DNA from: Candidatus Poribacteria bacterium
GTDB lineage: Bacteria > Poribacteria > WGA-4E > WGA-3G
Length of the DNA: 64,000 nt
Assembly: GCA_022828145.1 (NCBI GenBank)
Contig: JAJEJA010000046.1
Span: 19,916-83,915, forward strand
Direction: 5' to 3'
Position 1 is the stretch's first letter; every line of letters begins with the position of its first letter. Position numbers and translations under genes: made by a program. Below are positions 39,638 to 61,651 of this stretch, piece by piece. The notes beneath the pieces are model-generated. The model worked only from the letters and a program-made list of their open reading frames with translations, was not told the origin of the DNA and did not search any database.

Positions 39638-39642
39638 GGTAA

Positions 39643-41090: not shown

Positions 41091-43643
41091 TTACCAAATA
41101 ACTGTCTCAATTTCCTTTTCAAAGACGCCTTTGGGATATTGCGGATCGTTGAGTCGGATAACAAGTGTATCCTTGATTTTTCTACCTAAGAAATTAATTG
41201 TTTTATTCGGCTTGACATACCTTTCAACAGACTCCCCGGGGAGAAGTGTGCACTCCTGTGAAGTTAGATGTGGAAAGAGGTAAAATCGCTGCTTTTTAAA
41301 ACGCACTTCAAATATACATAACTCGGTTTCACCGATGTTGGTTATCCTCAAAGGTATACCGTTAGAACTTTGTTCTTGATTTTTGACCTCAATCCCGGCT
41401 TTTCCTCCGACAATATCTGCTACGAATTGGATTGGTAGAACCATTCCGGAGTTTTTATCCTTAAAGTCTAAAGTATCTGAAATGCGTCCGGCAACTGAGT
41501 GAGCTTGTGGATTGATAGTCAACTGATGATGTCCCGTATAGTTTTCTGCATGACTATCGGCAACCTTTAAGAATCCCGATTGAGATAGTTCATCAGGTAT
41601 TTGAACGCTGCACACCACGTCACCCTCATTATCACTGCGTTTTATTGTTATAGCTGCGTGTTGTGGGGTATCAAACAGATAAATCTTAGGAAGATATAAA
41701 GCGGAAGGGTTAGCTACAAGATGGGCCATATCATATTTTGCAGTGAAGCGATGCACACGACGGTTCGCTAAATAGCAATCTGTGATCAGCGATGCACGTA
41801 TCTGTTTGCGATAGGCATTAGCAGGTCTTTCACTCACGACCTGGACCAACGGGGATGTAACCATAGGTTCAAATGCTGCTTCGTTTTGGATATCCAGTTC
41901 ACTTTCTGCAAAACGTAAAACAGTGGATGGTTGAATATCTCCTTTCAGTCCACCTACTCCAAAAATATCAAGTTCAAGTGGCACGGATTCAGATGTATTC
42001 TGTTCCATTTGAGGAAAGACCAACTCATCGTTACGTACAATTGGAACAGGTCCGTTTACTTTACCAAACACATAGATTGGTGATTGAAATTTCCTCTTCG
42101 GTTCTTTCTTAGTTTCCAATTGAATCCATCCTAAATTAAGTCCGGGCAGGAGATGTTCTGGTCGGATGGTAGCGGTTATCTCACGCTCTTTGCGGCCAGA
42201 TAGAACAAGCGTTTCAGGTTTAATGCGTAGCCAATCCGTAGCAGAACGAAGTGTTAATTCCAATTTCTGTTTAGATCTGTTCCGCAGTGTCACCTTCTGC
42301 CCTGTCTTTTCAATCTGTATTCTAGATGCGATCCCGTGTGAACAGCAGATTATTTCGTATAAGCGCGTAGGGTCAAGTCGCATTTCACCATCAATCTCAG
42401 CACGATATATGTATGTGCCATCAGAAAGACTCAGCGTTACACCAAACCCATCCTCTCTTTTTTTAAAGAAAAGCGTTCGCGGTGCCCAATCATTGAAACT
42501 GCCCATTAGATAACCGAGACGTTCTTCCCCTGTCCGTGGGAATTGAAAATCTACGTCACTAAAAATCATAACGGATTCGCAGAAATTATCTTCTGTGTTA
42601 ACGTCAATTGGTAAAGGCTTTTCTTGTTCATCAAATGTTTCAACATGGTGGAAATCAGTTTGTTCTTTCTCTAATATCAACGTTGTTTCATTGACAATTT
42701 TGTACCATGTCCACACTGATATTTTCTCATCTGCTAAATGGAGTTCACCAACGTTCCGTCCCAGCTTCAGTTTTTCAACATTTACAGTAACAGGTAAATC
42801 TGTTGTATCATATCCATCAGTTTGGATTTGAGTCGGGGCAACTATCCAGTCCGAATCCGCTGTTGAAATTTGCATTGATAACCTATGTCGGGTAATATTC
42901 GGAACAGGAATAGTTTGTTGGAAAGATTTAAGGGTAATCCCTGTCTTTTTTTCTCGTGGAAGGATTACCCCCGGGTTTTTTAAATCTAATGCGTACTGTA
43001 GTTCCCTTTTTGATGTAATAATAGATACGTCAAAAGTTGATTCGTCATTTTGTGTTATTTCAAGATGGGTTGGCGGGTAAAGCGTAAAATCTCCAATGAG
43101 TAGAAACTCAGTAGTCGGTGCTTCTGTCCCCTCACGTTTATCAGCAATAGAGACTTTATGCGTAGTTATCTCACCGAAATTGATATATTCTGGGAGCGTC
43201 AAATTGGTAGATTGAGCGTCTGGGGGTTGCACACGTAACAATATCTGACTAAATGTTTTACGTTTTGAACTGGAAATGACGCTCAGTTTTACCACATTTT
43301 CCGATGAAGGATTTGGTAGGTTTCTTAGGTTGAGTTTCAGTTCAAGTTCCAATGGTTCTGATGTTGATGTCAGAGTCGCAGGTTTTGATCTCTCTGCCCG
43401 TTTTATCCACTTTTCAAATCCGCGAGGAATACGAATTCGTTCAACATGCAACTTCCCGTCACCAACATTTGATATTTCAACTTTTACAGATTGGTTTGGA
43501 TTATCAAACGAATCCACATTGATATTCGCATCAGTATAGAGGAAGGGGTCAGTAATCGGTGTAATCTTATATGGAGGTGGAGTTGGATCATGCGCTAATG
43601 GTAGGTAGAGTTCGCGATGAACTTTCTTTAGATGTTCAATCAT
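41091..43643 (-). CDS. Large multi-domain Ig-like protein with a CBM48-type domain
   Basis: About 850 residues from the ATG at 43643, which overlaps the PqiA-like stop. The N-terminal part (PFLYTDANINVDSF, VEISNVGDGKLHVERIRIPRGFEKW) is an Ig-like beta-sandwich resembling the one in the Hsp70-like protein (PWIYADANANIRDL). At ~372-430, GYLMGSFNDWAPRTLFFKK, DGTYIYRAEIDGE and RLDP form an AMPK/CBM48-type glycogen-binding domain. Further beta-sandwich repeats follow (TLRSATDWLRIKPETLVLSGR; LRITNIGETELCIFEVRF). No signal peptide is seen, so it is probably cytoplasmic, a scaffold or client-binding partner. It is the last gene of the operon. Confidence 0.75.
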   Translation of the reverse strand: MIEHLKKVHRELYLPLAHDPTPPPYKITPITDPFLYTDANINVDSFDNPNQSVKVEISNVGDGKLHVERIRIPRGFEKWIKRAERSKPATLTSTSEPLELELKLNLRNLPNPSSENVVKLSVISSSKRKTFSQILLRVQPPDAQSTNLTLPEYINFGEITTHKVSIADKREGTEAPTTEFLLIGDFTLYPPTHLEITQNDESTFDVSIITSKRELQYALDLKNPGVILPREKKTGITLKSFQQTIPVPNITRHRLSMQISTADSDWIVAPTQIQTDGYDTTDLPVTVNVEKLKLGRNVGELHLADEKISVWTWYKIVNETTLILEKEQTDFHHVETFDEQEKPLPIDVNTEDNFCESVMIFSDVDFQFPRTGEERLGYLMGSFNDWAPRTLFFKKREDGFGVTLSLSDGTYIYRAEIDGEMRLDPTRLYEIICCSHGIASRIQIEKTGQKVTLRNRSKQKLELTLRSATDWLRIKPETLVLSGRKEREITATIRPEHLLPGLNLGWIQLETKKEPKRKFQSPIYVFGKVNGPVPIVRNDELVFPQMEQNTSESVPLELDIFGVGGLKGDIQPSTVLRFAESELDIQNEAAFEPMVTSPLVQVVSERPANAYRKQIRASLITDCYLANRRVHRFTAKYDMAHLVANPSALYLPKIYLFDTPQHAAITIKRSDNEGDVVCSVQIPDELSQSGFLKVADSHAENYTGHHQLTINPQAHSVAGRISDTLDFKDKNSGMVLPIQFVADIVGGKAGIEVKNQEQSSNGIPLRITNIGETELCIFEVRFKKQRFYLFPHLTSQECTLLPGESVERYVKPNKTINFLGRKIKDTLVIRLNDPQYPKGVFEKEIETVIW

Positions 43644-44142
43644 GTGTACATGCCTCAATACGTGCTGAAATATACAAGCTGAGCAGAACTGAGATTGTGA
43701 AAAGAATGATTCCCCAACTTGGTTTTATCTGTGCCCCTCCTGGTAGGGTCCTAATTGTCAATATGAGTATGGCAACGATGTAAACATCAAGCATAGAAAA
43801 GCGACCCCATTTGTGAACGAGTGCTGATATACCCCTATTCAACTTGCCATCATTGAGCTTGTGATAGAAAACGCCTAACTTTAGGATTGGGAACACGACA
43901 GAAAAAATAAAGATTATAGACGCAAGTAAAATGTCCAAGACAACACCATTTTTAATCAGTGTCCATACACTGCTCAGGATGGAATAACTGGATGGTCCTG
44001 GAGTGATGAACGCCATGATAAAACCTTTGATACCGCCTCCGTTTGCATCAATCCGCATCACAGGGAGCATAATACCTAAACCTAAACACACCACAGCGAT
44101 GTTTACAAGCCATGTGAGTCTTATTTTTTCTTGTGTGGTCAT
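43636..44142 (-). CDS. PqiA-like membrane protein (operon copy)
   Basis: 168 residues, nearly identical to 40140-40646. Four helices: residues ~10-27, ~62-82, ~118-134 and ~143-160. The motif SMLDVYIVAILILTIRTLP matches the PqiA core (WSMLDVFVVAIL). It lies 18 bp after the transglutaminase-like gene with AGGAT directly before the ATG, and its stop overlaps the next start by eight bases. Single-domain PqiA proteins are found with MCE-type transporters, none of which is in this window. Confidence 0.85.
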   Translation of the reverse strand: MTTQEKIRLTWLVNIAVVCLGLGIMLPVMRIDANGGGIKGFIMAFITPGPSSYSILSSVWTLIKNGVVLDILLASIIFIFSVVFPILKLGVFYHKLNDGKLNRGISALVHKWGRFSMLDVYIVAILILTIRTLPGGAQIKPSWGIILFTISVLLSLYISARIEACTHD

Positions 44143-44160
44143 ATCCTAATCTTCAACGAA

Positions 44161-45225
44161 CTACCAATCTAAAGGGCTTTTTGATTCTGTTGTGTCATCA
44201 TACACTGTGTCATCGTACCTGTCGTCATCATCGTCATCTGCAAACACAAAACGGTAGACCAAATACCCAATTGGCACGCCTAAACCGAGAATAAAAAAGA
44301 GTGTAGCTATTATCCCACCTATTATGTTATTTGACTCTGGTGTGTTTTTTTCTGTTGGCTCTTTTGAGTCAGGCTTTGGCTCTTCAGGTTTCGGTTCTAC
44401 AGGTACAGGTGTCGTTTTGATAGGAGGCTTTTCGGGTGTTAGATCTGGATCTTTTGGTGTAGGTTTAGGTTCAACTGGTGGAGTTATTGTTGTTTTGTTT
44501 GGTTTTGGAGCGGGTCCAACTTTAGAAGGTGATAAAGGAACAACTGCTTCCACAGTGCTACCAGAAGATACTGGCATTACACCGACGGTCCAACCAGTAC
44601 CGGTTGTTTCGCAGTAATAGTATTTTGTACCATCGTAAGTAACTGAGGTACCAGAGAAATCCCCACTAACGCCGAGTGCAATGTGTCCTGGTGTAAAAAT
44701 CAGAGCAGTTTTTTCTCCTAAACCGCGGAGAATAGCAGCAACAAGAATAGTCGTATCTTCGCAATCACCACCACCTTCAATCAGAGTCTCAACAGCGTAA
44801 CGTCTAAATTCATCAAAACCAGTTGTTACGTCATCAAACGTATAGGGTAGTGATTGCACGAAGCTTAAAACGAAATCAACTCGATCCTGTTTTGTCCAAC
44901 TTCTATTTTGTTTAAAGGTGCGTTCAAACTCCCGTGTCAGATTGCTAAGGGTTGTTCTGCCTTCTTCTACTAATTTGGGTATATCGTAACGTTCTTTGCC
45001 TGAGTAAGAATTATACCGTTCTAAGTCAATTGTCATGAGGACTGTGTATGGTCGTTTCTTAAAATTCCATACATACCGTCTGCCAATAGTCTGGCGTGTC
45101 TGAGAGGGGCGTTGCTGTGTGATACCTTCTACTATCTGGACAGAACTTAGGGCATCTTTAGCAATAGCATCCACATTGATAAGAAGTCCAATGAAAAGTA
45201 AGACAATAAGAGATCTGATGTGCAT
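44161..45225 (-). CDS. Membrane-anchored transglutaminase-like cysteine protease
   Basis: 354 residues. A signal peptide (SLIVLLFIGLLINVDAIA) is followed by a transglutaminase-like domain with C155 in GGGDCEDTTILVAAILRGLG, H181 in FTPGHIALGV and a third polar residue near CETTGTGW (~205-211). This is the Cys-His-(Asp/Glu) triad order. A Pro/Lys-rich spacer (EPKPTPKDPDLTPEKPPIKT) leads to one membrane helix (~298-322) and an acidic tail (DDDDDDRYDDTVYDD). The catalytic domain therefore faces the periplasm. The start has GGAGAA upstream. Such domains cleave or cross-link peptides; the target is unknown. Confidence 0.8.
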   Translation of the reverse strand: MHIRSLIVLLFIGLLINVDAIAKDALSSVQIVEGITQQRPSQTRQTIGRRYVWNFKKRPYTVLMTIDLERYNSYSGKERYDIPKLVEEGRTTLSNLTREFERTFKQNRSWTKQDRVDFVLSFVQSLPYTFDDVTTGFDEFRRYAVETLIEGGGDCEDTTILVAAILRGLGEKTALIFTPGHIALGVSGDFSGTSVTYDGTKYYYCETTGTGWTVGVMPVSSGSTVEAVVPLSPSKVGPAPKPNKTTITPPVEPKPTPKDPDLTPEKPPIKTTPVPVEPKPEEPKPDSKEPTEKNTPESNNIIGGIIATLFFILGLGVPIGYLVYRFVFADDDDDDRYDDTVYDDTTESKSPLDW

Positions 45226-45231
45226 TGTGTG

Positions 45232-46404: not shown

Positions 46405-46418
46405 CCTATCTAACCTTC

Positions 46419-47858
46419 TTACTCTCCACGCATTATAATAGGCTTTTGAATAATTTCACCGTCATCTTTCCGCTGCAATCCAGGCAAAATGACTTCAACA
46501 ACAGATCCAGATTCGGCATCGGTCTTTCGTGAGCCTTGTATTTCATGGAAACGCGAATCTGCCTTCGTTTTGCCTATCTCAATAGGTACAACTTCAAAAC
46601 CTACAAGTTGTAGAAATTCATTTAATTGTTCAGGAATATTGTCATACTGGACAAATCTCGCAACACCGTTGAATAATCTATCTTTTATAAACTGCGGAAT
46701 AAACTGGTTATATTCTGTTTCGTCGAATTTGCGTCCAAGTTGTAATCCAGTAAGCATCCCTTCATAACGTGACACATACGCGTTACATTCTCTTTGGATT
46801 TCGTTATTTGCTACATCCGTGTCTAACTCAGGCTTCGTTGGTACAGGCGGAGCAGGTCCACGGATTTCTTTTAGTTTATCTTTGATAGCCTGACTGGCAT
46901 ATCCCAATGATTGAATAAGATTGGCATCCACTGTAGTTGATTGTTTTAGTTCATTTTCCCATTCCTCCATAAGTCGCGCTATCAAATTTAAAATCAGCAC
47001 AACATTTTGACTTGGTGTTGGATTTTCTATACTAATCATGTCAATCGATTCACCGCTTTCATAAGCAAGTGCCAATGATTCAACTTTTGTCTGTGCTTCT
47101 TGGATAATCTCCTCTAATTGAAGTTGATCGTAAACTTGCGGCTGTTGACCATCGGATCTGTCTGGAACACTGTCTGAACCAATATTCACTAATGCTAGTT
47201 CAAGACCGTCTAAGCGACTTTCCACTTTAGATAAGGTGCTTTGTAGGTTTGTCTGTTCATTACGAAGTGTAGTATGGTTAGACATCATACTCTCTAATTT
47301 CTCGGTGTTTTCTTTGCCTTGTTGACGAATCAGTTTTAATTGTCCATCCCAACGTTGATCGTTTTCCTGTGATCTATCTTTCCACTGTCGTTGACTGTTT
47401 TCGAATCTGAATTGCAGCTGACGGATTTCCTGTTTACTAAAAAAAAATAGAACCCCAATTATTAGAATAATGATTGAACCAATTATCATAAGAATAATTT
47501 GAAACGGATTGTCTACCTTCTCCTCTAAAATTGACTGTTTGCCTTCCAGGCTCACAAATCTATCGTTAATTCTCTTATTCAATGATTCTAAAGGGTTTGG
47601 TTCATCCAGGGGTTCTTGTTCAGCAATGCTATCTTCACCGTTTGTTTGTTTAGCAATAGTTTCTTCATCGTCTGTTTGTTTAGGCGTAGTATCTTCACTG
47701 TTCATCTGTTTAGGCGTAGTATCTTCACCGTTCATCTGTTTAGGCGTAGTATCTTCACCGTTTGTTTGTTTAGGAGACTCCTGTGAATATAAAAACGAAG
47801 TGATTCCCAAAAGTAACAGGGCTAATAACAGAACATATTTGAAGTGATGTGTTTTCAT
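46419..47858 (-). CDS. GrpE-like protein, membrane-anchored paralogue with decapeptide repeats
   Basis: About 479 residues from the ATG at 47858 (GAGGAAAAA upstream). A hydrophobic N-terminus (YVLLLALLLLGITSFLYSQ) is followed by five to six copies of a ten-residue unit, TPKQMNGEDT. A membrane helix (QIILMIIGSIIILIIGVLFFF, ~120-140), long coiled coils and the GrpE-like end (VGFEVVPIEIGKTKADSRFHEI, GSVVEVILPGLQRKDDGEIIQKP) come next. The N-terminal repeats would lie outside and the GrpE-like part in the cytoplasm if the first segment is a signal peptide. The C-terminal ~200 residues match the next gene downstream. It could tether the Hsp70-like partner to the membrane. Confidence 0.65.
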   Translation of the reverse strand: MKTHHFKYVLLLALLLLGITSFLYSQESPKQTNGEDTTPKQMNGEDTTPKQMNSEDTTPKQTDDEETIAKQTNGEDSIAEQEPLDEPNPLESLNKRINDRFVSLEGKQSILEEKVDNPFQIILMIIGSIIILIIGVLFFFSKQEIRQLQFRFENSQRQWKDRSQENDQRWDGQLKLIRQQGKENTEKLESMMSNHTTLRNEQTNLQSTLSKVESRLDGLELALVNIGSDSVPDRSDGQQPQVYDQLQLEEIIQEAQTKVESLALAYESGESIDMISIENPTPSQNVVLILNLIARLMEEWENELKQSTTVDANLIQSLGYASQAIKDKLKEIRGPAPPVPTKPELDTDVANNEIQRECNAYVSRYEGMLTGLQLGRKFDETEYNQFIPQFIKDRLFNGVARFVQYDNIPEQLNEFLQLVGFEVVPIEIGKTKADSRFHEIQGSRKTDAESGSVVEVILPGLQRKDDGEIIQKPIIMRGE

Positions 47859-47917
47859 TTTTTCCTCATGAATAACTGCATGAATTGCGTATCTATACAC
47901 ATGTTTTTATTAAAATC

Positions 47918-49168
47918 TTAATCCATCAAAATTGGGATAGTAAATTCAATTGATCTCTTTTCCTTTTGATTCGGTAAAATTGCTGTGAATGTCCCATGCA
48001 TATCATCATGCAAGGTCACACTGAGTATAAATTCAAACGGACTGCGTGATGTATAAACCCTATCCGATAACGGGTCAATTTCAAGTGTGACAAGACGGTG
48101 GACATCACTGTTTTCTGTCATGGATAAACCGCAGTAGAGATGAACATCCAATTTTTCAGGTGAGCCTGTGAAGCGAAATGCTTTTTTTTGATGATACGGA
48201 GGTACCCAAGTTTTTGGAATAAGTTCCACCATGTTTCCATCAGGCAATCGAACACCAAAGCAGTAATTATAGAGAAAATGAAGTGGTTTTCCAAGATTAT
48301 TTTCTTCAAATTGCCGAACTAATTCTGCTGCCCCAAAAAGTGCCGCGACTTCCTGTGTTTCAAGAAATGTTGCAATGCAACGGTCACGCAACATCCGAAT
48401 AATAGTTTCAGTAGTATCGTCAATTCTGCCAGAAAAACCGACAGCAATAGGCAGATCATCTCCAACTTTTTGCAATGCTTTCTGTACACCTGAGACCTTT
48501 TTGCCTATATCCATGAAGTAGTCAGTAAACCGCAACATATTGGTTAACTCAACAACAAATCTACCTTCTGATTGACTACAAAATGTATGATAGATAACAA
48601 AATCATTACGAGCAAAATCTATCATTAACAGATGGCATTTGTTTGTATTGATGAGTGCATCCTCCAATGTCTTCTGATAATATGCAGCAAGACACAGAAT
48701 CTGGCTAAGCATACCGCGGAGCGTCACATTTGAAGATTTGAGAAATGCAACTTGTGCTTCACTGTTTACACGCTTGAGTGCATTCCTGAGTTGTTGACGA
48801 TGTATATATGTCCACTGGGACGGTGTGATAGCATATACCGACATCCTATCAATGAAATATCCTTGTTTGGGTAACTGACGTTGAAAAATCTCCTCAAAAA
48901 ATGCGTCAAATAAGTATCCTAAAGTTTCTTCATCTGTGATTTCCTTGAATTTCACATCTAAATCTGGAAACCGCACTTCTGTGAGGTTGTTTGAGTTGAG
49001 ACGTTTGAATTCATCACCGAAACAAACACTCAATGTGTTATCAACTTCCAGTTGAAATCCCACTTCCCACGGCAGCCTAAGATTGATGTCTTGTACTTGG
49101 TTATCACCTAAAACGGTAATCTGAATTTCTGGTGCTGAGAGATTGATGATGCATACGTTTTTTGACAT
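47918..49168 (-). CDS. Degenerate Hsp70/actin-like (ASKHA) protein
   Basis: 416 residues. Elements in Hsp70 order but with lost nucleotide-binding residues are visible. VYAITPSQWTYIHRQQLRNALKRV resembles the VTVPAYF...R.A...A region, and LLMIDFARNDFVIYH takes the place of VFDLGGGTFDVS. PIAVGFSGRIDDTTETIIRML takes the place of the VGGSTRIP segment. A ~110-residue C-terminal beta domain (RLVTLEIDPLSDRVYTS) follows. The glycines of the phosphate loops are gone, so ATP hydrolysis is doubtful. It sits between the complete Hsp70-like gene and the GrpE-like genes and may be a regulatory pseudo-chaperone. The fold call is an inference. Confidence 0.55.
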   Translation of the reverse strand: MSKNVCIINLSAPEIQITVLGDNQVQDINLRLPWEVGFQLEVDNTLSVCFGDEFKRLNSNNLTEVRFPDLDVKFKEITDEETLGYLFDAFFEEIFQRQLPKQGYFIDRMSVYAITPSQWTYIHRQQLRNALKRVNSEAQVAFLKSSNVTLRGMLSQILCLAAYYQKTLEDALINTNKCHLLMIDFARNDFVIYHTFCSQSEGRFVVELTNMLRFTDYFMDIGKKVSGVQKALQKVGDDLPIAVGFSGRIDDTTETIIRMLRDRCIATFLETQEVAALFGAAELVRQFEENNLGKPLHFLYNYCFGVRLPDGNMVELIPKTWVPPYHQKKAFRFTGSPEKLDVHLYCGLSMTENSDVHRLVTLEIDPLSDRVYTSRSPFEFILSVTLHDDMHGTFTAILPNQKEKRSIEFTIPILMD

Positions 49169-49186
49169 CGGTGTACCATTATGTAA

Positions 49187-51919
49187 TCAGATTTCCTCTA
49201 CAAACTCTGGTTCATCCCTTTCTACTGTTGCCCTATATTTCCCACCCGCAACAAGTGCAACCACCTTAATTTGACCTTTCTCTTCAACCGCCATTTTTAA
49301 ACTCGCTTCTCTTAACAATTCCTCCGAAACCTCATCTGGAATGTCAGGTGTGTAGCACCCAACTTTTGAAGTTTCTGTAAGATTATTGTCCTTACCAAAA
49401 TGCTCGCGCACCTCAATAGCTACCTCTTTCGAATTAAGTGGGAAATCAATAGTGATTGAACTCTCGTCAGGGATAATGCGTCCCCTTGGAATCAATTCTT
49501 GAAAAATGGTCTTGGTTCCATAGCGTTTCAAAATACCAAGACGTGAGCGGGTTCTGTGTACTAAATCTATTTTAAACTTAGTTCCAGGTGCCTTCTGACT
49601 GTAGGCGTAATGCACTGCTCCAATTACAACGCGCTCTTTGAGATGTTCAGCTAAATTAATAGGAATATTCTTATTATATTTTTTCTGTAGGTGACTCGAC
49701 ATCAATGTTTTCAGCAATGGCATTTTAGAGGATTGTCCAGCAAGAACTATTGTGTCTGGTAATAAACCCCTATTATCAGCAATCATTGTATCAATATCTG
49801 CAAAAGTTTCATTTAACACCGGTTCAATAAGAGATTGTAACTGTTGTACAGTAAATTTGATGTCAACTGATCCATCTACGAGGTTTTCTAAGGGACGCAC
49901 GTCTTTTCCAACAACAACGTCCAATTGGAATATACCCTCAGTCTCCTTATTTTTACTTAAGTCCTTTTTCATTTGTTCAGCAACTCGATACAAAACAGAA
50001 CTGTTGTTTATAACTGCCTCATCATATTTAGGATTATTGGATACCTTTAAGATTTTCCTCTGTTTGTGATAAGGAATATCAAAAGAAATGTTACCTTTTG
50101 CTTTATGAATTCTCTGTTCGAATTCTTCAAGAACAGAATCAATAATCCCTTGAGTTATGTCATCACCACCATAATTTCTATTTCCGCCGAGACTAAGAGG
50201 CTCAATCGTAAAGATGTCACTATTGTATTTTACTTGAGAAAGAGCAATATCAATGGTCCCACCACCGAAGTCGTAAACTAACATTCTATAGTTATTCGGT
50301 ATAGTATTATATATTTCAAGGTGATGGTCAATGTATCCAATAGAAGCGGCCGAAGCTTCATCAATGAAATGAAGATCTGTTATGCCCATTTCATTAAAAG
50401 CGTTTTCAAGGTCATCACGCTGTTTTTGAAGGTACATAGTCGGATGAGTTACAACGCACTTTGTAATCCTTGACGGGATTTTTTGCTGATCCAGATAGTT
50501 TTCTGCTTCGGTGATAATGTGTTTAAGAATATGAGAAACAACTTTAGGCGGTTGCAATTTCGTCTGATTCTCTGGAAAATGGCGGTGCCACTTGTATCCT
50601 AACCAACGTTTCACTGATCGGATGTAGTAAGGTCCGTCCGTAATACTTGTGCGATCAGTCTCAGCACCATAACCAACCTTATAATTCTTTCCATTCTTAG
50701 GTTGTGAATGGTAAATAATAGTTGAAGGCATAATTTCTGGTGGGGTCACTTCGGTATCCAATGGAATAAGTTTCGGTTCAAGGGAATCCAAATCAATATA
50801 TGCACAACATGAATTCGTCGTCCCGAAATCTATTGCAAGATAATGCGGATATTCTTCCAACTCATTAACTCGGACATTCAGGACACCTTCATACTGTGGG
50901 TTTTCCATGCAATTAGAGTTAATCGTAAAGTTACTTTGGTGATCTCCATGTTCAAGATTATTTGCAGATATTCGCATGTCAATATTATAGTGTCCTCCGC
51001 TTTCAATGTTTATTGGATATTCAAGGTTTGAAAATTGAAGGAGGTTGGAAGGATCATTGAATTCAATATTTTGGATTGCCAACGGTTGTTCGCCTGTGTT
51101 CTGAAGCGTCATCGTATGGGTTTTCTCACGATCCTGTGTGATTTCCAGATGCAGATGCGTTGATGACAGCTGCAGTTTTGGCGGATCTGGAACTATTTCT
51201 CTCTGGAGCATAATTCGTTTTTCAATCGGTTGGGAACAGTCTTGGAGTTCAAAATTTAGTTTTACCTCATTTGGCTCATCGGTGAGTCGATTGCAATCAA
51301 TCTTCAACAAGACTTTTTTAATTGCTCCGTTTTTTTGATGCAGTTCTGGAGAATGACCAACACGAAGACCTGATATACCTATGATTTTAATTTCGTTGAT
51401 ATAGAATTGACTCTGCAGCACTTCAAGATGGAGTTCCTCCGTCACCGTCTCTGTACCTCTCCGGTAACGAACAACTATAGGATTTGGAGTTATCTTAAAA
51501 TCGGGACGTGGCAACGCCTCAAGACGTAGTGATTTTTCGCCTTCGCTGTTCGGCGGAACATCTTGGGAGCGTACAGTAATTGTTTCAGGATTTTGGGCTA
51601 ATTTTGCTGGATCCACCTGAATCTCTACTGGATGACTCTTACCCGCCTCAACTTCAAAAGACTCATCATTTGCATCTGTAAATTGGATGGTGTTTTCACG
51701 GATTGTCCGAATCGGATGGAACGAAATTGGGTAGGCACCGGTGTTTTCAATGAGAATGGTAAGGTCGCGAATATTCGCATTGGCGTCTGCGTAAATCCAC
51801 GGTTCTTCCTTCCATTTTACAGAAAAGTCAAAGACTTTACACCCGCAATAACCACAATATTTTTCGTGCAAATGGATCACCCATCCGACATTGCATTTGG
51901 TGCAGACTTTCCCTTCCAT
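49187..51919 (-). CDS. Zinc-ribbon / Ig-like / Hsp70 fusion ATPase
   Basis: 910 residues. A zinc ribbon (CTKCN...YCGYCGC, 6-27) and two or three beta-sandwich (ASH/Ig-like) units (40-355) precede a complete Hsp70-type ATPase: phosphate 1 LAIDFGTTNSCCAYI (361-375), VVTHPTMYLQKQRDDLENAF, FIDEASAASIGY, phosphate 2 LVYDFGGGTIDIALS, and adenosine motif IVLAGQSSKMPLLKTLM. The usual substrate-binding domain is replaced by a ~150-residue C-terminal extension. So this is an Hsp70 whose targeting part is at the N-terminus. The ATG has AGGAGTAGACGGTA upstream and starts seven bases after the tubulin-like stop. Confidence 0.85.
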   Translation of the reverse strand: MEGKVCTKCNVGWVIHLHEKYCGYCGCKVFDFSVKWKEEPWIYADANANIRDLTILIENTGAYPISFHPIRTIRENTIQFTDANDESFEVEAGKSHPVEIQVDPAKLAQNPETITVRSQDVPPNSEGEKSLRLEALPRPDFKITPNPIVVRYRRGTETVTEELHLEVLQSQFYINEIKIIGISGLRVGHSPELHQKNGAIKKVLLKIDCNRLTDEPNEVKLNFELQDCSQPIEKRIMLQREIVPDPPKLQLSSTHLHLEITQDREKTHTMTLQNTGEQPLAIQNIEFNDPSNLLQFSNLEYPINIESGGHYNIDMRISANNLEHGDHQSNFTINSNCMENPQYEGVLNVRVNELEEYPHYLAIDFGTTNSCCAYIDLDSLEPKLIPLDTEVTPPEIMPSTIIYHSQPKNGKNYKVGYGAETDRTSITDGPYYIRSVKRWLGYKWHRHFPENQTKLQPPKVVSHILKHIITEAENYLDQQKIPSRITKCVVTHPTMYLQKQRDDLENAFNEMGITDLHFIDEASAASIGYIDHHLEIYNTIPNNYRMLVYDFGGGTIDIALSQVKYNSDIFTIEPLSLGGNRNYGGDDITQGIIDSVLEEFEQRIHKAKGNISFDIPYHKQRKILKVSNNPKYDEAVINNSSVLYRVAEQMKKDLSKNKETEGIFQLDVVVGKDVRPLENLVDGSVDIKFTVQQLQSLIEPVLNETFADIDTMIADNRGLLPDTIVLAGQSSKMPLLKTLMSSHLQKKYNKNIPINLAEHLKERVVIGAVHYAYSQKAPGTKFKIDLVHRTRSRLGILKRYGTKTIFQELIPRGRIIPDESSITIDFPLNSKEVAIEVREHFGKDNNLTETSKVGCYTPDIPDEVSEELLREASLKMAVEEKGQIKVVALVAGGKYRATVERDEPEFVEEI

Positions 51920-51925
51920 TACCGT

Positions 51926-55321: not shown

Positions 55322-55343
55322 GCGGTCCTCCTATAGAAAATAA

Positions 55344-55682
55344 TTACTTTTTTACTCTTTGTGATGGGATTGCAAATAACAAACATGCGTCTATAATTAC
55401 TATCAAGACATAGAATAGTAAATAGAATATGGTGTGCCACCATTCAGAAACCCGTGGAATAGCGCGAAAGCATATCCAGACAGCAAGACCCGTCCCAAAA
55501 AGTAAATGTATGACAATCGCAATACGCCAAGCGCGCGTTGTCGCGCGTTCAATTCCGATTTCAATCATGAATAATCGGGCAAGTCCAAATGCTACTAACC
55601 ATACAATTCCATACCCAGCAAGATAGATATAAACTGGCAATACCAAAGGATCTATGAAAAAATCAGCAAGAACTTGCATCAT
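55344..55682 (-). CDS. Small three-helix membrane protein
   Basis: 112 residues with three or four hydrophobic segments: VYIYLAGYGIVWLVAFGLARLF (~17-38), IAIVIHLLFGTGLAVWICFRA (~53-73) and TIFYLLFYVLIVIIDACLLFA (~84-104). It begins with two adjacent ATGs after AAGGGGAC. It is not recognised as a named family. Its place between the vWA and tubulin-like genes suggests a membrane component of the same complex. Confidence 0.75.
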   Translation of the reverse strand: MMQVLADFFIDPLVLPVYIYLAGYGIVWLVAFGLARLFMIEIGIERATTRAWRIAIVIHLLFGTGLAVWICFRAIPRVSEWWHTIFYLLFYVLIVIIDACLLFAIPSQRVKK

Positions 55683-55810
55683 GTCCCCTTCAAATTTATA
55701 TTTTTCGTGTATATTCTTGTTAGATCAATTTCCAATTCTTTATGAACACTATAGCATAAAGAACACTATAGCATAAACAGAAATAAATTTCAACGTTACA
55801 TTTTGTTATT

Positions 55811-57769
55811 TCATCTTTTCAGGGGGTTTACATGTTCTGTCGAACCTTGAAAAGATTTGTCATCTGGTTTAGTGTCGGATCTATTATCCTTTGTATCATA
55901 TCGGACTCGGATCTCAATGCTGTCTTCATCTTGTTTCAATGTTAATGTGTCAGGTGGATTTATCACCTTTCCTTCTGTGTCGTCAATGGACTTATAATGA
56001 CGAATTCGTCCTTTCTCTTTTGACCATGGCAAAGGAGAAAGTTTCTCACAACGTAAGAAATCAGGACACCCTACATCAAAATGCAATTCATGTGCGTCGT
56101 TCTTATTAAACGCTAAAGAATTCTTGTCTGTGAGTTCGTATGATCCACCGTCGTTTGATATTAGTCCATCTATATCGTTCTCTAAAGTTAACTTAATTTG
56201 ATGTTTTACTGATTTAGGTTTTGCCTTTTTTATAGTCGCACTAATGAAAAGAAAGAGAATTACAACTACAACCGGTACAAGGATTACCCATATCACCCAC
56301 ATTGGGAAACCAGTGCCGCCCCCTGTAAGTTCATAAGGTATCTCTATTGCTGTTTTTAACGTTTCATTTTCATATTTGTAGTCAATTTCAAGTAAAACCT
56401 TGTTTCCATACCAGTCCAAACGACCCTGTTCCGGTACTTCTATGCTAAACGGTTCTCCTAACCGTTCTATAACTTTCGGTACACTAACGTTGCAGAGTTT
56501 GCGATTATCTTTATATTGAACCTGACAACGGATTTGTTCAATCTGGAATACATCTACATTTGGACTTTCTGTCTGAATCGTTAAAGATTCTCTATATTTG
56601 TCGTCAGCAAACTGGAGTTTCAACATTTTCGTTGCACTATCAGAATCGGAAAGATTGGCAACATAGATGCTTTTAATAACCGGAGTATAGTTCATTAAGG
56701 GGGCAGAATAAACTTTATCCTCTTCGTTGAAACTATAAGCCACTTCAAGCTTGATCTTATTGTCCGATGCAGCGATTTCACGATTGTTCGGAAGCATCAG
56801 GCGGAATTCATTAGGTGGTGGACTTCCATGAAGCTCAACAGAATCAACATTGAGAATGCTTGATGTATTATCTTCATTTATGATTTGAAGCGGTCTGTTA
56901 TTTTGGTCAACTATCTCTACATTGACGCTATTGAGTTTAAACTTGGATTCTTCGGAGTTTTCTGTATTTATTAACAGCGTTTCACTAAAGAACTTTCCTT
57001 CCTCATCTCTTGATAGTTGAATTCTCTGCACCGATTCTTTCGGCTTCGTAGGTGTTGCAATGAAAATTGAATCAATATTGCCCCGTTTTTGAAGTCGCCT
57101 TACTTCAATTCGGACATGGTTATTGACAAAGACCCCAAAAATCATTGGGTCATAAAATTCATCTTCAATTTCCGCCAGTCGTTTTAATACATCAGCAATT
57201 TCTGGATCATTTCTACCGCTGTAATCAATGTCACCATCGGTTACAAAAATCCAATAGGTCTCATCATCAGTTTCTCTATATAGCTTGTCATACACCTCTA
57301 CCTCTGCGCGCAGTAAGTAGGATACTAATCCGTAAAAGGCTCTATTGAGATTCATCGGATTGGGTAGTTCCTGCTGAAAGTGGTTTTTACTAACCTGTTC
57401 TCTCTTTATTTTAATGTCACCCCTTTTAGCATATTCAACGTAGGTAAGAATGTCTCCGCTTTGATACAGTGGTTTACCAACTAACGCAGCATCGCATTCC
57501 CTGATATATGTATCGTTTGCTATGTCCCGTAAATGTTGTGATATGTCTGTGAATAATAGATTTGTCAAGTATTCATTGACCCGTCGAATGTCGTTAGATT
57601 GCATATAGACGTTTGTGTCCCCGCCGATTTGTAGACTCACCATACTACCAGATACATCATAAATCACGATGATATGTTTGGCAGCTGCTATTATCGGTGT
57701 GAACAAGAAATAGATAAATATTATGGTAGTAAAAAGTGTGTTTCGTGTCATTATTTTGAAATGGTTCAT
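55811..57769 (-). CDS. Membrane-anchored von Willebrand factor A-domain protein
   Basis: About 652 residues from the ATG at 57769, preceded by AGGAGATTGCTC whose first bases are the previous stop. A signal peptide (NTLFTTIIFIYFLFTPIIAAA) leads to a vWA domain with the MIDAS motif DVSGSM (38-43) and a later WIFVTDGDIDYSGRNDPEI, so divalent-metal ligand binding is expected in the periplasm. Beta-rich domains follow, then one membrane helix (MWVIWVILVPVVVVILFLFIS) and a ~130-residue cytoplasmic tail. It could transmit a periplasmic signal to the cytoplasmic Hsp70/tubulin partners. Confidence 0.85.
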   Translation of the reverse strand: MNHFKIMTRNTLFTTIIFIYFLFTPIIAAAKHIIVIYDVSGSMVSLQIGGDTNVYMQSNDIRRVNEYLTNLLFTDISQHLRDIANDTYIRECDAALVGKPLYQSGDILTYVEYAKRGDIKIKREQVSKNHFQQELPNPMNLNRAFYGLVSYLLRAEVEVYDKLYRETDDETYWIFVTDGDIDYSGRNDPEIADVLKRLAEIEDEFYDPMIFGVFVNNHVRIEVRRLQKRGNIDSIFIATPTKPKESVQRIQLSRDEEGKFFSETLLINTENSEESKFKLNSVNVEIVDQNNRPLQIINEDNTSSILNVDSVELHGSPPPNEFRLMLPNNREIAASDNKIKLEVAYSFNEEDKVYSAPLMNYTPVIKSIYVANLSDSDSATKMLKLQFADDKYRESLTIQTESPNVDVFQIEQIRCQVQYKDNRKLCNVSVPKVIERLGEPFSIEVPEQGRLDWYGNKVLLEIDYKYENETLKTAIEIPYELTGGGTGFPMWVIWVILVPVVVVILFLFISATIKKAKPKSVKHQIKLTLENDIDGLISNDGGSYELTDKNSLAFNKNDAHELHFDVGCPDFLRCEKLSPLPWSKEKGRIRHYKSIDDTEGKVINPPDTLTLKQDEDSIEIRVRYDTKDNRSDTKPDDKSFQGSTEHVNPLKR

Positions 57770-57779
57770 GAGCAATCTC

Positions 57780-59165
57780 CTAATGTTCATAGTCTCGACA
57801 AATAAGCCTATCTTTACACAAAATAAATAGTTTATCTCCATACTGAATAGGGCTCGCAATGGGGGACGGTACTTTTTGCCATCCCATCGCTAACGTTTGA
57901 TGTTGGTCGGTAATATTTTGTCCAAGTGCCAAAATAGTCAATCCATAAGAATGAGCAGAATAAATCCGATTGTTTACCACAATCGATTGATGCGGTGCAA
58001 AAAGGTATTGATTACCATTTTTTGGTACGTTTTTATTTGGCAAAGGAACACCTCTATCGGTATCATAAGTATAGACAACTTGGCCTGATATATCAGATAA
58101 AAACAACTGCTTTCCATCCGTAAGCGGCGGATGTAAAAAAAGAGATAGACGATTTTCAATATTGTGTTCTCGCACATGATCTAAATCCATTACTTTAGTT
58201 AATTTTCCGGAATTTGGGTCAAAACGCTCAAGACTCCGATGACCACTATTGCTTATCGATTCAAAATAGACCATACCATTGACAGATACAGGGGCTGAGA
58301 ACGATCTATTTTCGTCAAACAGATCTCGTTTCTTAAACGAACTTGTGCCCATGTTGAGAGAAAAAATGCCACCTTGTTTAGATGTGAAAACGATATATTG
58401 ACCACAAAGCGTTGGAGACATCGGTTCGCTTTTCTCACCAAAGAGATCATGACCTATAATTAGCCCATTATACTTAGCAAGGTCGAAAAACAGCATACCC
58501 CGTTTCACCCCAACAACCATAACATCTTTCTCATTAACCCTACATTTCAACGGTGCACATCCATGTAAAGGTTTAATCTGTGATGCATCTACACGATTTA
58601 TATTGTTGATAAGGTTTGTTCTACCATCAATAACAGAAGTCTTTTGAATTCCCCCAGACACAACCGTATACAGATGAAGTCCATGATAAATTGGTGTTGA
58701 GCCATAAGTCAATTTATCACTAAACGGAATACTCCATTTCAAATTAAGGTTTCTCTGAACCGAGTCGTATGCAATACTGTATACATCCAACTTTTTTTCA
58801 CGAGAATTCGGCACAACAATAAGTCCATCAATAGCCAATAATCCGGGCAAGTTATCCCCAGTCTGTATCTCTGGTATATTCGCAACCCATGTTACGAACT
58901 CACTGTAATTCAGCGTATCGCCAGATGATTTCTCTGGTAGTGTTGCTGTGCGTTGCGGATTACCCGATGCCATATCCCATTGTGCAGGTTTTTTCAATTC
59001 TTGACGACAATCCGTGCAGTAACGTGCATAAGCGCGATTCCAACGTCCATCAGCACACCGAAAAGCAAATTGAGAGCACTGCTTGCAAAATGTCATAGTT
59101 ACGTCCGCATCTGTTGATGGTAAACTGCACTTCGCAATGTCATTTTTGTAAGGACATACCTTCAC
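57780..59165 (-). CDS. Zinc-ribbon protein with beta-propeller-like repeats
   Basis: 461 residues from a GTG at 59165 that overlaps the ZorB-like stop (GTGA). Two Cys pairs, FCKQCSQFAFRC (27-37) and YCTDCRQEL (49-57), form a zinc ribbon. The rest shows repeated short strands of PQQ/WD-like character (GLLAIDGLIVVPNSREKKLDVY, GVKRGMLFFDLAKYNGLIIGHD, GQYIVFTSKQGGIFSLN, NGMVYFESISN, DGKQLFLSDISGQVVYTY). It has no signal peptide, unlike most PQQ-like propellers. It is likely an adaptor or sensor in the cytoplasm. Confidence 0.7.
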   Translation of the reverse strand: MKVCPYKNDIAKCSLPSTDADVTMTFCKQCSQFAFRCADGRWNRAYARYCTDCRQELKKPAQWDMASGNPQRTATLPEKSSGDTLNYSEFVTWVANIPEIQTGDNLPGLLAIDGLIVVPNSREKKLDVYSIAYDSVQRNLNLKWSIPFSDKLTYGSTPIYHGLHLYTVVSGGIQKTSVIDGRTNLINNINRVDASQIKPLHGCAPLKCRVNEKDVMVVGVKRGMLFFDLAKYNGLIIGHDLFGEKSEPMSPTLCGQYIVFTSKQGGIFSLNMGTSSFKKRDLFDENRSFSAPVSVNGMVYFESISNSGHRSLERFDPNSGKLTKVMDLDHVREHNIENRLSLFLHPPLTDGKQLFLSDISGQVVYTYDTDRGVPLPNKNVPKNGNQYLFAPHQSIVVNNRIYSAHSYGLTILALGQNITDQHQTLAMGWQKVPSPIASPIQYGDKLFILCKDRLICRDYEH

Positions 59166-59824
59166 TGTATTTCTCCTGTCTCCGAATAAACTAAAACAAT
59201 TTCAATCCTGCGGTTTTTAGCGCGTTTTGATGCGGTATCATTCGCCTTTTCAATATCTGAACTATCACCTGCAGCAGGACGAAATTCTGCATAACCCGTT
59301 GCTTTTAAGGTTCTCGGATCTATTCCAATCCGATCAACGAAAAGTCGCAAAACAGCAATTGCTCTGTCTGACGACAGTTCCCAGTTTGATCGGTCTGGGG
59401 ATATGATAGGAACATTGTCAGTATGCCCCTCAATTTGAATACTTTGATATAATTTTTGTCCTTCCTGGTCTGTTCTATGTTGCTGCAGTAATCTACCAAC
59501 AGCAGTGAGTGTATATTCTCCAAGTAGTCTTAGTTTCGCTTCATCTGTGTTAAAGAGTATTTGGTCACTAAACATGAAACGCTGTAAGTTACCGTCCCTT
59601 TCAATTGTGATAATACCCTGTTCTATCGCACGCGCAAACCTTTCTGTAAATACCTCTTCTATCGTGTCTTGTTTTTCCTCCATTTGCATCTTCAAGAATA
59701 ATTTGCTGTTAGAGACGAATTGAATGAATATAAAAAACAGAAAGATAAGCAACATCGCGATGGATACATCTGTAAAAGCGGGCCATACGTTAAAGACAGA
59801 ATCCTGTCGCATTTTAAGATCCAT
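59162..59824 (-). CDS. MotB/ZorB-like OmpA-domain stator protein
   Basis: 220 residues. One membrane helix at ~18-37 contains D19 (AFTDVSIAMLLIFLFFIFI), the position of the proton-carrying Asp in MotB and ZorB. A short coiled segment is followed by an OmpA-like peptidoglycan-binding domain: MFSDQILFNTDEAKL, IEGHTDNVPI, NWELSSDRAIAVLRLF, ATGYAEFRP and KNRRIEIVL. This anchors the motor to the cell wall. The ATG is directly joined to the stop of the channel gene (TAAATG), the usual tight A-B coupling. Confidence 0.88.
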   Translation of the reverse strand: MDLKMRQDSVFNVWPAFTDVSIAMLLIFLFFIFIQFVSNSKLFLKMQMEEKQDTIEEVFTERFARAIEQGIITIERDGNLQRFMFSDQILFNTDEAKLRLLGEYTLTAVGRLLQQHRTDQEGQKLYQSIQIEGHTDNVPIISPDRSNWELSSDRAIAVLRLFVDRIGIDPRTLKATGYAEFRPAAGDSSDIEKANDTASKRAKNRRIEIVLVYSETGEIQ

Positions 59825-61651
59825 TTATGTTTTCCTTTTGCGATTAAACCCGAACCAGCGGCGAACTTCTGTTCCCCAACGATACAAACCAGGTTTGCTC
59901 ATTGTATTGTTCAGAGTGTCTACCTTCTTGCCGAGTTCAGTAAAATTATCCTGCAGTTCTCCTATCATTTTCTCTGTGCGTTGCTGATCATCCGCTTCTG
60001 TTTTTGAAAATGTATGTTGAAGTTGTTTTACACTGTTATCTAACGTTTGCATGATTTCATTCTGTTCATTAACCAACTCGCGTTGTCCTTCAAAATGTCC
60101 TCCAATTCGCTCAAAAACTTTATTTTGTGTCACAAGTGCATCTTGAATCTGAAGTTCACCAATCAATTGCGATAGTCTGTTAGCAATTAGCTGCTGATTT
60201 TGTTCTAAATCGGATCTGATTCGTTCAAAAACTATATTTTGATTTTCAAGTGCGGATCGTATCTGCAATTCACCAGCAACTGCCCGTAAATTATTTCCTG
60301 TTTCATGGAGTCCTTCCACCATAACTTGTTGATTTTCCACGATGGGTTGAAGTAGCGATTGAAGTTGAGTCTTAAGTGTATTTGCAAGTGTATCAGATAG
60401 GTTGTTGGCAAATTCGTCAACAAATTCTGATTGTGATTCCTGAGCCCTATCAATTGTGGCTTTTAATCCCGCGCTTTCTTGTCTGAACTCTGATACGACA
60501 TTTTCTAAACCCGCAAGCATTTCTGACTGATATTCTGATACTTGAGACATAGACCGCTCTGTAAAAAGTTCAAAGTCATTCACAATAGACTTCACATCTG
60601 ATTGATATTCGGCAACTTGAGATACCGACTGGTCTGTCAATCCTTTAAAATCGTTTACTATTGTATTCATAGTGGCTTGAAATTCTGAGATCTTATTCAT
60701 GAACTCCTTTGTTGTTTTGCCATATTCTTCCACAGCAGATTTTATCAGCACTTGGTATTCATTTATTCCTCCTAAGCTCTGCCGAAGTTCTGCGGGAATT
60801 TCACTCAATTCTTGTGTAATCACAAATTGTTGTTCAAGATATGCATCCCAGGACTTCTCAGTTAATTGTTGTATAGACTCTTGCATCTTTGAGACATTGG
60901 TTTCCGTTGCCAATTTAAACTCGTCCACAGTCACCTTAAGTCCATCCATAGAGGATACAATTGTTGTCTCTGGAGTTTGTGTGAAATAGGGTATTATTTT
61001 CGTAGACACAGTATTTTCAAACTGCGTGAGAAAAACGGAGTTTGCAAGATTAAATAACCACCCACAGAATCCCAGGCCGAACGATGCCAGCAATCCTGCT
61101 AAGGTCGTTTTAAATGCGGTGCCCATCCCTTTTAGTGTTTCTTGTAGTGCTTCAGAGATTTTAGGGAGTTGGTCAAGGTCGTCAATGTCTTCCAAGAGCG
61201 GTTGAACTTCAACCACTGTAGTTGTTAGTCCCCATAACGTCCCAACTAAACCGAGTATAATAAGGATACCGAGGATATAACGCGAAAGTCCGGCTTTTCT
61301 GCTGATTGCACCTGCATGTATGTCCCCAAGCACATCATGGTCAATTTCTCCACCATTCTGCTTAATGTTGACTAAATCTTGGATTCTACGAGAAATGCTG
61401 CTGAAACCGATAACTTTTTGGAGAATTAACGATTGACTAAATCTATTAAGGAAATCAGTAGAAACATCACTGAAGCCGTGATTTTTGATATGTTGCCTTA
61501 CATAAAAAAGACAAACACTTTCATATATTACCCGCAGGAAATGCCAACAATAGTTTGCAACGCCGATCCAAAAGAATATCTGAATCAAGTTAACAATGGC
61601 TTTGCCAATTGGGTCTTCAAGACTGAAAACTAGACGTAATAACTCGTTCAA
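59825..61651 (-). CDS. MotA/TolQ/ZorA-like proton channel with long coiled-coil tail
   Basis: 608 residues. Membrane segments at ~18-48, ~124-146 (ILGILIILGLVGTLWGLTTTV) and ~180-206 (FKTTLAGLLASFGLGFCGWLFNLA) hold the MotA/ExbB core, with GMGTAFKTTLAG corresponding to the conserved pore-lining segment. About 370 residues of heptad-rich tail follow (repeats of SQVSEYQSEM and QNKVFERI type) into the cytoplasm. A long tail on a MotA-like subunit next to a ZorB-like gene is the arrangement of Zorya ZorA. The start is a TTG at 61651; no ATG is near. It is the first gene of the operon. Confidence 0.85.
   Translation of the reverse strand: MNELLRLVFSLEDPIGKAIVNLIQIFFWIGVANYCWHFLRVIYESVCLFYVRQHIKNHGFSDVSTDFLNRFSQSLILQKVIGFSSISRRIQDLVNIKQNGGEIDHDVLGDIHAGAISRKAGLSRYILGILIILGLVGTLWGLTTTVVEVQPLLEDIDDLDQLPKISEALQETLKGMGTAFKTTLAGLLASFGLGFCGWLFNLANSVFLTQFENTVSTKIIPYFTQTPETTIVSSMDGLKVTVDEFKLATETNVSKMQESIQQLTEKSWDAYLEQQFVITQELSEIPAELRQSLGGINEYQVLIKSAVEEYGKTTKEFMNKISEFQATMNTIVNDFKGLTDQSVSQVAEYQSDVKSIVNDFELFTERSMSQVSEYQSEMLAGLENVVSEFRQESAGLKATIDRAQESQSEFVDEFANNLSDTLANTLKTQLQSLLQPIVENQQVMVEGLHETGNNLRAVAGELQIRSALENQNIVFERIRSDLEQNQQLIANRLSQLIGELQIQDALVTQNKVFERIGGHFEGQRELVNEQNEIMQTLDNSVKQLQHTFSKTEADDQQRTEKMIGELQDNFTELGKKVDTLNNTMSKPGLYRWGTEVRRWFGFNRKRKT

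Follow-up and report, generated by a model that had tools for sequence, protein, structure and literature searches.

A thirteen-gene operon of Candidatus Poribacteria joining Zorya-like motor genes to a tubulin-like protein and Hsp70-type genes, a candidate conflict system

The window analysed in this study is a stretch of 64,000 nucleotides (64 kb) of contig JAJEJA010000046.1 from a Candidatus Poribacteria bacterium (assembly GCA_022828145.1). At 41091-61651 it contains thirteen open reading frames (ORFs) lying head to tail on the minus strand, which encode a putative Zorya-type ion motor, a tubulin-like protein, an Hsp70 with GrpE-like partners and several envelope proteins (Table 1, in order of transcription). 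The initial annotation had placed a same-strand operon at exactly this interval and the ORF calls agree with it completely, except that thirteen genes are counted instead of twelve. The short gaps or overlaps which it described hold for 10 of the 12 gene junctions (between -23 and +22 nt), but not for the 128-nt gap between the vWA gene and the 112-aa membrane protein gene, which is the largest spacing, nor for an apparent 80-nt overlap at the start of the vWA ORF, which arises because a far-upstream TTG start was used for this frame. The promoter-like site it had named is the best of the region and lies ahead of motA, but such sites are no commoner than in shuffled sequences (36 observed in 12.2 kb against 36.4 +/- 5.4), and hence the argument for it is its position and not its existence.

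Table 1. Features of the operon, with positions in the 64-kb window (TM, transmembrane; Ig, immunoglobulin).
Feature	Position	Strand	Basis or remark
Promoter-like site TTGACA-17-TATCAT	61701..61729	-	11/12 consensus matches; 50 nt upstream of motA start
MotA/ZorA-like channel subunit, 608 aa, long C-terminal tail	59825..61651	-	MotA_ExbB, PADLOC ZorA3, alignment
MotB/ZorB-like subunit with a single TM helix and a peptidoglycan-binding OmpA domain, 220 aa	59162..59824	-	OmpA, ZorB1
461-aa protein, N-terminal cysteine pairs (zinc-ribbon-like), beta-propeller-like repeats (both by eye)	57780..59165	-	
vWA-type protein, 682 aa, start uncertain (TTG)	55811..57859	-	DVSGS metal-site motif; hydrophobic segments 42-60, 522-540
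Multi-pass membrane protein, 112 aa	55344..55682	-	Hydropathy; in all compared loci holding that part of the cluster
Tubulin_2 (FtsZl1-type) predicted GTPase, 1131 aa	51926..55321	-	PF13809 E 4.8e-40; FIGLGTTGT and GSLCGGTCSG loops
Hsp70, 910 aa, N-terminal cysteine pairs and Ig-like (HYDIN-type) domains	49187..51919	-	HSP70 E 8.2e-27
416-aa protein, likely second Hsp70-like	47918..49168	-	Predicted substrate-binding beta domain; nucleotide motifs unrecognisable
GrpE-like protein, 493 aa, N-terminal hydrophobic segments and coiled coil	46419..47900	-	Same family as 390-aa gene; hydropathy
GrpE-like protein, soluble paralogue, 390 aa	45232..46404	-	Predicted fold
LapG/transglutaminase-like predicted periplasmic cysteine protease, 354 aa, signal-like N-terminus, C-terminal TM	44161..45225	-	
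PqiA-like 4-TM protein, 168 aa	43636..44142	-	PqiA E 9.5e-13
Ig-/CBM48-like beta-domain protein, 855 aa, no TM	41091..43658	-	AMPK1_CBM E 4.3e-6

The first two genes resemble the motor subunits of Zorya. The MotA-like protein matches the PADLOC model ZorA3 (E 5.1e-15) over residues 122-578, some of which belong to the coiled-coil tail, and two further ZorA3 models match residues of about 121-196 alone (E 5.9e-9 and 3.5e-7). Its Pfam match to MotA_ExbB (E 1.8e-4) scores 21.7 bits against a cut-off of 22.9, its relatives have a whole length of 571-735 aa, and no solid relative was found in the PDB profile search. The MotB-like protein matches Pfam OmpA (E 2.9e-12) and PADLOC ZorB1 (E 4.9e-21 over residues 13-212), and Asp19 in its TM region as well as Asp136 and Arg154 of the OmpA domain are invariant in all seven aligned sequences. 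Against the NCBIfam ZorB1 model it reaches 32.3 bits for a cut-off of 400, and its top-scoring solved relatives in PDB are proteins other than ZorB. None of the thirteen proteins matched ZorC, ZorD, ZorE, ZorF or ZorG (PADLOC, E 0.01).

The thirteen genes form one co-inherited unit. Their order is repeated in seven more Poribacteria loci (L003, L004, L005, L006, L007, L011+L012, which are two contigs of one genome, and L034+L035, which are adjoining pieces of one contig), with one or two copies of the GrpE-like gene per locus; the last gene is only partly visible in several of them as the stretch ends there. These loci came from scanning public genomes with an alignment profile and from stretches retrieved afterwards. 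Co-occurrence was counted in 84 genomes of the phylum, some of them incomplete, and six distant loci sampled the outside of the phylum. Close matches to the tubulin (E <= 1.2e-55) and to MotA (E <= 5.3e-186) were found in the same 8 of the 84 genomes (G000, which is the window's own, G008, G019, G021, G030, G043, G074 and G078) and in none of the other 76. The Fisher value of 2e-11 treats related genomes as independent and is thus only indicative. Close and weak matches were divided after the results had been seen, across gaps of 5e-186 versus 2e-8 for MotA and 1e-55 versus 4e-13 for the tubulin. Weak MotA matches in 20 genomes, some of which are the MotA of a sister system described below, and weak tubulin matches in G059 and G060 were left out of the counts.

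The distribution of the cluster is patchy, as only 2 of 18 genomes of the window's own genus carry it. The tubulins of these two carriers are 43% identical, whereas those of G030 and G043, members of two families, share 66%, and MotB is 67-89% identical among seven carriers. Housekeeping GrpE, on the other hand, is 55-62% identical within the genus (two pairs) and 36% identical to two other families (two pairs). Judged by these pairwise values, gene identities are at odds with kinship, which suggests that the cluster has moved by horizontal transfer or replacement. The search for a mobile context gave no phage record and no viral contig. Eight plasmid records, from Deinococcus, Thermus, Meiothermus, Azospirillum and Cylindrospermopsis, align with 21-31% of the tubulin at 25-32% identity, and one of these tubulin-like genes overlaps or adjoins a vWA gene. 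The copy in G008 (L007 about 21961-22408, L026) may be decaying, because its PqiA-like gene aligns in separate pieces and its longest tubulin match contains stop codons.

The Tubulin_2 protein has conserved glycines (alignment of 23 sequences) and is 81% identical to the Candidatus Poribacteria tubulin P0002; in the PDB profile search it gave weak eIF3 rows and no solid relative. No P-loop GTPase family matched any of the thirteen proteins in Pfam, and the P-loop pattern occurs once only, within the MotA tail. The 910-aa Hsp70 also carries a HYDIN_VesB_CFA65-like Ig match (E 5.2e-10, Pfam), and what we take to be its nucleotide-site motifs are invariant in all seven aligned sequences. The 416-aa protein is likely a second, degenerate Hsp70-like protein. 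The fold of an Hsp70 substrate-binding beta domain appears in its AlphaFold2 (AF2) model, a weak one built from seven sequences in which the ATPase part is poorly modelled, and the presumed phosphate and adenosine motifs are unrecognisable by eye in the seven-row alignment and in the 38-row consensus. Its best Pfam value is E 0.0098 to an unrelated family, and neither the PDB profile search nor hhalign gave anything significant.

For the 493-aa and 390-aa proteins, it is the predicted structure alone, a helix pair followed by a beta domain as in GrpE, which speaks for a GrpE identity. Pfam GrpE (PF01025) was absent from the matches listed for 13 members of the family and, in G000, from those at the two genes even with a limit of E 10; hhalign to GrpE was not significant and the PDB profile search gave coiled coils only. 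In L007 the Hsp70 ORF has 1209 aa with a GrpE-like domain at its end, an Hsp70-GrpE fusion which was seen once. Elsewhere in the window's own genome a GrpE domain lies in an open frame of 1431 aa (L052, G000:C17:69424-69930), perhaps a dedicated fusion. The 493-aa gene also contains about seven tandem 30-nt units (window 47586-47795, reported as six overlapping 60-nt copies), which encode TPKQMNGED-type repeats between its two hydrophobic segments.

Among the envelope parts, the vWA-type protein keeps Asp68-x-Ser70-x-Ser72 and Thr207-Asp208 invariant in seven of seven aligned sequences, with no match in Pfam or in the PDB profile search. The transglutaminase-like protein is, as judged from its sequence, nearest to LapG-type cysteine proteases. 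It matches PDB 4fgo ('Periplasmic protein', which we take to be LapG) with E 5.9e-5 over 48 positions, NCBIfam LapG with E 0.0035, far under the cut-off, and Transglut_core with E 0.04, also under the Pfam cut-off. The catalytic residues of LapG are Cys-His-Asp. Here Cys155, His181 and Glu206 are invariant in 12 of 12 sequences, sister system included, so that Glu stands in the third position instead of Asp. The likeness to LapG covers the region around the catalytic Cys and the signal-like N-terminus, whereas the C-terminal TM anchor differs and no LapA or LapD partner was recognised in the operon. The 461-aa protein has four invariant cysteines (Cys27, Cys30, Cys50 and Cys53, 7/7 aligned), no Pfam match and a single PDB profile row at E 0.051.

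The PqiA-like gene is optional, being present in three of eight loci including the window, one of them with an interrupted alignment, and the 855-aa protein was matched in all seven compared loci, incompletely in those whose sequence breaks off there. Pfam recognised neither an adhesin nor an export channel nor an outer-membrane partner in the operon, and no nuclease or helicase was recognised in it. Downstream of the last gene lies a second PqiA-like gene (window 40140-40646), identical to the operon copy at 490 of 507 nt and probably a recent duplication of it. A Gp49-type toxin-like gene (E 4.6e-5) and a weak antidote-like partner (E 0.03) also adjoin the operon (window 39320-39981).

These results bear on most of the earlier description. 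Its Zorya-type stator is borne out by the ZorA3 and ZorB1 matches, the lack of ZorC, ZorD and ZorE which it reported extends to ZorF and ZorG, and its single system agrees with the order conserved in other genomes and with the joint presence of MotA and tubulin. The Hsp70 and GrpE pair stands, the latter by predicted fold, and hydropathy is consistent with outer-side vWA and transglutaminase parts. Of the model families it named, Tubulin_2, HSP70, OmpA and PqiA were recovered, MotA_ExbB fell just under its cut-off and Transglut_core under its own, and GrpE and VWA gave no Pfam match, the latter being represented by the invariant DxSxS motif instead.

When the surroundings of the cluster on the chromosome were inspected in one genus, a sister operon came to light (L100, L106, L108 and L109, and L101 in part). 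It encodes a vWA-like lipoprotein (about 480 aa; classed by eye, unmatched in Pfam), a membrane protein of about 160 aa, a short tubulin-like protein (about 500 aa; PF13809 Tubulin_2, E 3.9e-9 and 7.6e-8), a protein of about 1000 aa, a coiled-coil-like membrane protein, a MotA of 694-802 aa, a MotB and a LapG-like protein. The 1000-aa protein shows actin/Hsp70-type motifs by eye and a weak MreB/FtsA match (MreB_Mbl E 0.002-0.008, below cut-off), and the PDB profile search gave MreB at E 0.17 and no solid relative. The LapG-like protein of the sister operon is 63-67% identical to that of the window, whereas MotA and MotB are only 21-36% identical. The sister operon thus shares with the present one a tubulin-like protein, a protein with actin/Hsp70-type motifs, a vWA-like protein, MotAB, a LapG-like protein and, in one genus, the genomic site, but it is compact, and neither a separate classical Hsp70 nor propeller-like or Ig proteins were recognised in it. 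Matches to its tubulin profile and close matches to its MotA profile occur in the same 12 of 84 genomes, none of which is among the eight carriers of the main system; this absence of overlap is not significant (P 0.27). The gap for the sister MotA lies between 1.5e-245 and a 69-aa fragment at 1e-19 in G065, and weak matches in 13 genomes were left out. The MotAB-tubulin pairing therefore exists in two forms, in 20 of the 84 genomes.

The site shared by both systems in the genus of G030 lies between the gene of a conserved 268-aa protein and a gene that by eye looks cysteine-synthase-like, the latter with a close match in 35 of 38 genomes. It was read in 22 genomes (G030, G078 and 20 others) and both flank genes are visible in 16; G025 and G075, where the contig ends, and G083, G023, G080 and G076 were left out as the left flank gene was unseen. 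The present system occupies two of the 16 sites (G030, G078) and the sister system four (G073, G061, G020, G024), while an Hsp70-type gene set occupies three (G071, G062, G077). Two sites hold a large TmtA-like gene (G081, G070; the G081 copy matches PADLOC TmtA with E 3e-63), one a group of genes that includes a ThsB-type TIR gene (G028, E 1.3e-9) and one a restriction-like HSDR_N-like gene (G082, E 6e-10). The remaining three have no large insert, the flank ORFs lying about 141 bp apart in G018, about 184 bp in G034 and about 1.8 kb in G033. One or two representatives of each cargo type were tested by model search. Further cargo comprises T5orf172/PDC-S57 in G070 (E 1e-32) and a second HSDR_N gene in G077 (E 2e-15), which lies between neighbouring flank genes. 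The Hsp70-type set (L104, L105, L110) consists of an Hsp70 of about 845 aa, one or two J-domain-like-looking proteins starting with NPFHILGATxxD or NPFYILxATQxD, and a membrane protein; three of its proteins were tested and gave no PADLOC match.

In G067 and G079, too, no more than about 10 kb separate the sister tubulin from the cysteine-synthase-like gene, and the MotA-MotB-LapG end of the sister operon is likewise near it in G075; its other five carriers have it elsewhere or on other contigs. At the window's own position, the flanking thiamine pyrophosphate (TPP)-enzyme gene is accompanied in G017 by a type III-D CRISPR module (L135 3278-11436; Cas10 E 3e-65), and its orthologue in G014 adjoins a ThsB-like TIR gene (L136 5083-5763, E 1e-9). 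Across the 11 genomes of the genus that were read, what lies next to the TPP-enzyme gene differs; four of these stretches end within 10 kb, and no empty site was seen. The initial annotation had left the choice between defence, envelope remodelling and a contractile or transport task. As both systems occur, albeit in one genus, at a site that elsewhere holds genes similar to antiviral ones, defence is favoured over its other options.

Three published systems come closest to the operon. Zorya types I-III (PMC11890865) pair ZorAB with ZorCD, ZorE or ZorFG and have the same long-tailed MotA-like protein and OmpA-domain MotB-like protein with a TM aspartate. Their motor, a 5:2 complex, depends on ion flow and on an intact tail; the proposal is that it senses attack on the envelope through peptidoglycan binding and that it recruits a nuclease (PMC11890865). 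The present operon differs by having no ZorC-G match and no recognised nuclease or helicase, and instead a tubulin, Hsp70/GrpE-like, vWA and LapG-like genes. The FtsZl1 (Tubulin_2)/vWA clusters, in which a large tubulin-like protein is accompanied by a vWA partner, were reported with a predicted role in membrane remodelling (Makarova and Koonin 2010; PMC2875224). These clusters likewise contain Tubulin_2 with a long C-terminal region, vWA with the metal-site motif and an OmpA-domain protein, but here it is a stator subunit of MotB type, paired with MotA, that carries the OmpA domain, Hsp70/GrpE-like proteins are present, and the P-loop GTPase and kinase which are frequent in those clusters were not found.

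The GAP1-N2 GTPase-centric conflict systems (Kaur et al. 2020; PMC7159879) include one theme in which tubulin is joined by vWA and FNIII-repeat proteins and another built on Hsp70-GrpE, in some cases with a second Hsp70-type protein. That paper describes the themes as non-overlapping and centred on a TRAFAC GTPase and GAP1, whereas here both occur in one operon with an ion motor and no recognised P-loop GTPase. No TRAFAC GTPase was found in the operon by Pfam or the P-loop pattern; GAP1 was not searched with its own model. By its defining genes, as predicted, the operon is neither Zorya nor a published GTPase-tubulin system, but a hybrid of both, and we file it as one which probably works like Zorya without being Zorya by those genes. 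No paper on a MotAB/ZorAB-tubulin operon was found in the open-licence PubMed Central literature, by titles and the starts of abstracts, among the matches listed.

We give about an even chance to the reading, the likeliest of those considered, that the operon is a Zorya-like, envelope-sensing and motor-triggered conflict system with a tubulin/Hsp70 module rather than a nuclease as its cytoplasmic arm. From what is known of the families, an ion-driven 5:2 MotAB stator would be anchored in the envelope and grip peptidoglycan by its OmpA domains, with the predicted vWA and LapG-like proteins beside it on the periplasmic side. The cytoplasmic side would hold a GTP-binding tubulin-like protein, an ATP-cycling Hsp70 and GrpE-like exchange factors. 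Before infection, the degenerate Hsp70-like protein and the GrpE-like membrane protein may keep the tubulin-like protein inactive or unassembled. A disturbance of the cell wall, likely by an incoming phage, would open the channel, and the long MotA tail would release or assemble the tubulin-like protein; motor action would switch the chaperones, a polymer would form and the infected cell would be blocked. Because no nuclease was recognised, the output may be sequestration or growth arrest by this polymer rather than DNA cutting. A defence role, polymer formation and motor-tubulin coupling are what we infer. Of the overall reading in the initial annotation, the one system with its Zorya-type stator, outer vWA and transglutaminase parts and Hsp70 with GrpE-like proteins, lacking ZorC, ZorD and ZorE, has held, and the remainder belongs with these inferred steps.

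A bolder form of the same idea, in which the rotary ion motor drives or gates a tubulin-family polymer, is tentative and stands at clearly less than even. The rotating stator tail would wind, feed or release a filament under the control of its own Hsp70/GrpE set and so act, without a nuclease, as an antiviral weapon by walling off or jamming the infected cell.

It is rather unlikely, though worth serious thought, that the operon is instead a MotAB-powered machine for remodelling membrane or envelope, as predicted for the FtsZl1/vWA/OmpA clusters, in which the tubulin shapes the membrane and the vWA, PqiA-like and LapG-like proteins act on the envelope. PMC2875224 names Tubulin_2, vWA and an OmpA-domain protein among the parts of such clusters, the vWA metal site is intact here, a PqiA-like and several other membrane proteins are present, and most carriers keep the cluster outside the hotspot. 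However, PqiA is optional, and an accessory conflict system accounts better for the patchiness (8/84), for the identities at odds with kinship and for the site which, in one genus, also harbours TmtA-like, TIR and restriction-like genes.

A surface-processing or secretion/adhesion machine, whose stator drives the LapG-like protease to cut or release surface proteins while the tubulin and Hsp70 deliver the substrate, appears improbable. The LapG-like protein is the most conserved part common to both systems and keeps Cys155, His181 and Glu206 in all 12 sequences, and stators power gliding and secretion as well (PMC11890865), but distribution and hotspot weigh on the other side, together with the missing adhesin, export channel and outer-membrane partner. 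We are equally sceptical of a divergent fourth type of Zorya with the tubulin/Hsp70 genes as the effector replacing ZorCD, ZorE or ZorFG. The ZorA3 and ZorB1 models do cover most of each protein and the known types differ in the neighbours of ZorAB (PMC11890865, PMC8565338); yet no ZorC-G gene matches, the NCBIfam ZorB1 score is far from its cut-off and the best solved relatives of MotB are not ZorB. Moreover, a Lentisphaerae locus (L013 5259-15895) has Cys-rich, vWA-like, tubulin-like and Ig-type Hsp70 genes (26% identical to that of the window) in a row, with no stator match on its stretch of 18.6 kb. The tubulin-chaperone module can thus exist by itself, and in Poribacteria the motor may be a later addition to it. 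A TIR-like protein lies upstream of that row (by eye). Lastly, two or more unrelated operons lying side by side by chance, for which the 128-nt gap and several internal promoter-like sites could speak, are rejected as highly improbable, since the genomes with a close MotA match and those with a close tubulin match are the same eight of 84, the order is kept in eight loci and the pairing recurs in a second form in 12 of the 84 genomes.

This study has described a predicted Zorya-kind motor which has tubulin and chaperone neighbours instead of nucleases, in two versions. To our knowledge, large tubulin-like proteins with vWA partners have no tested function, and the operon links this puzzle to the question of how the Zorya motor signals to its effectors. 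It makes two ideas testable, namely that a stator tail acts on a cytoskeletal polymer and that bacteria defend themselves by force or filaments. If the union of rotary motor and tubulin is true, it would be the first immune machine to join a flagellar-type motor to a tubulin, in two versions at one hotspot.

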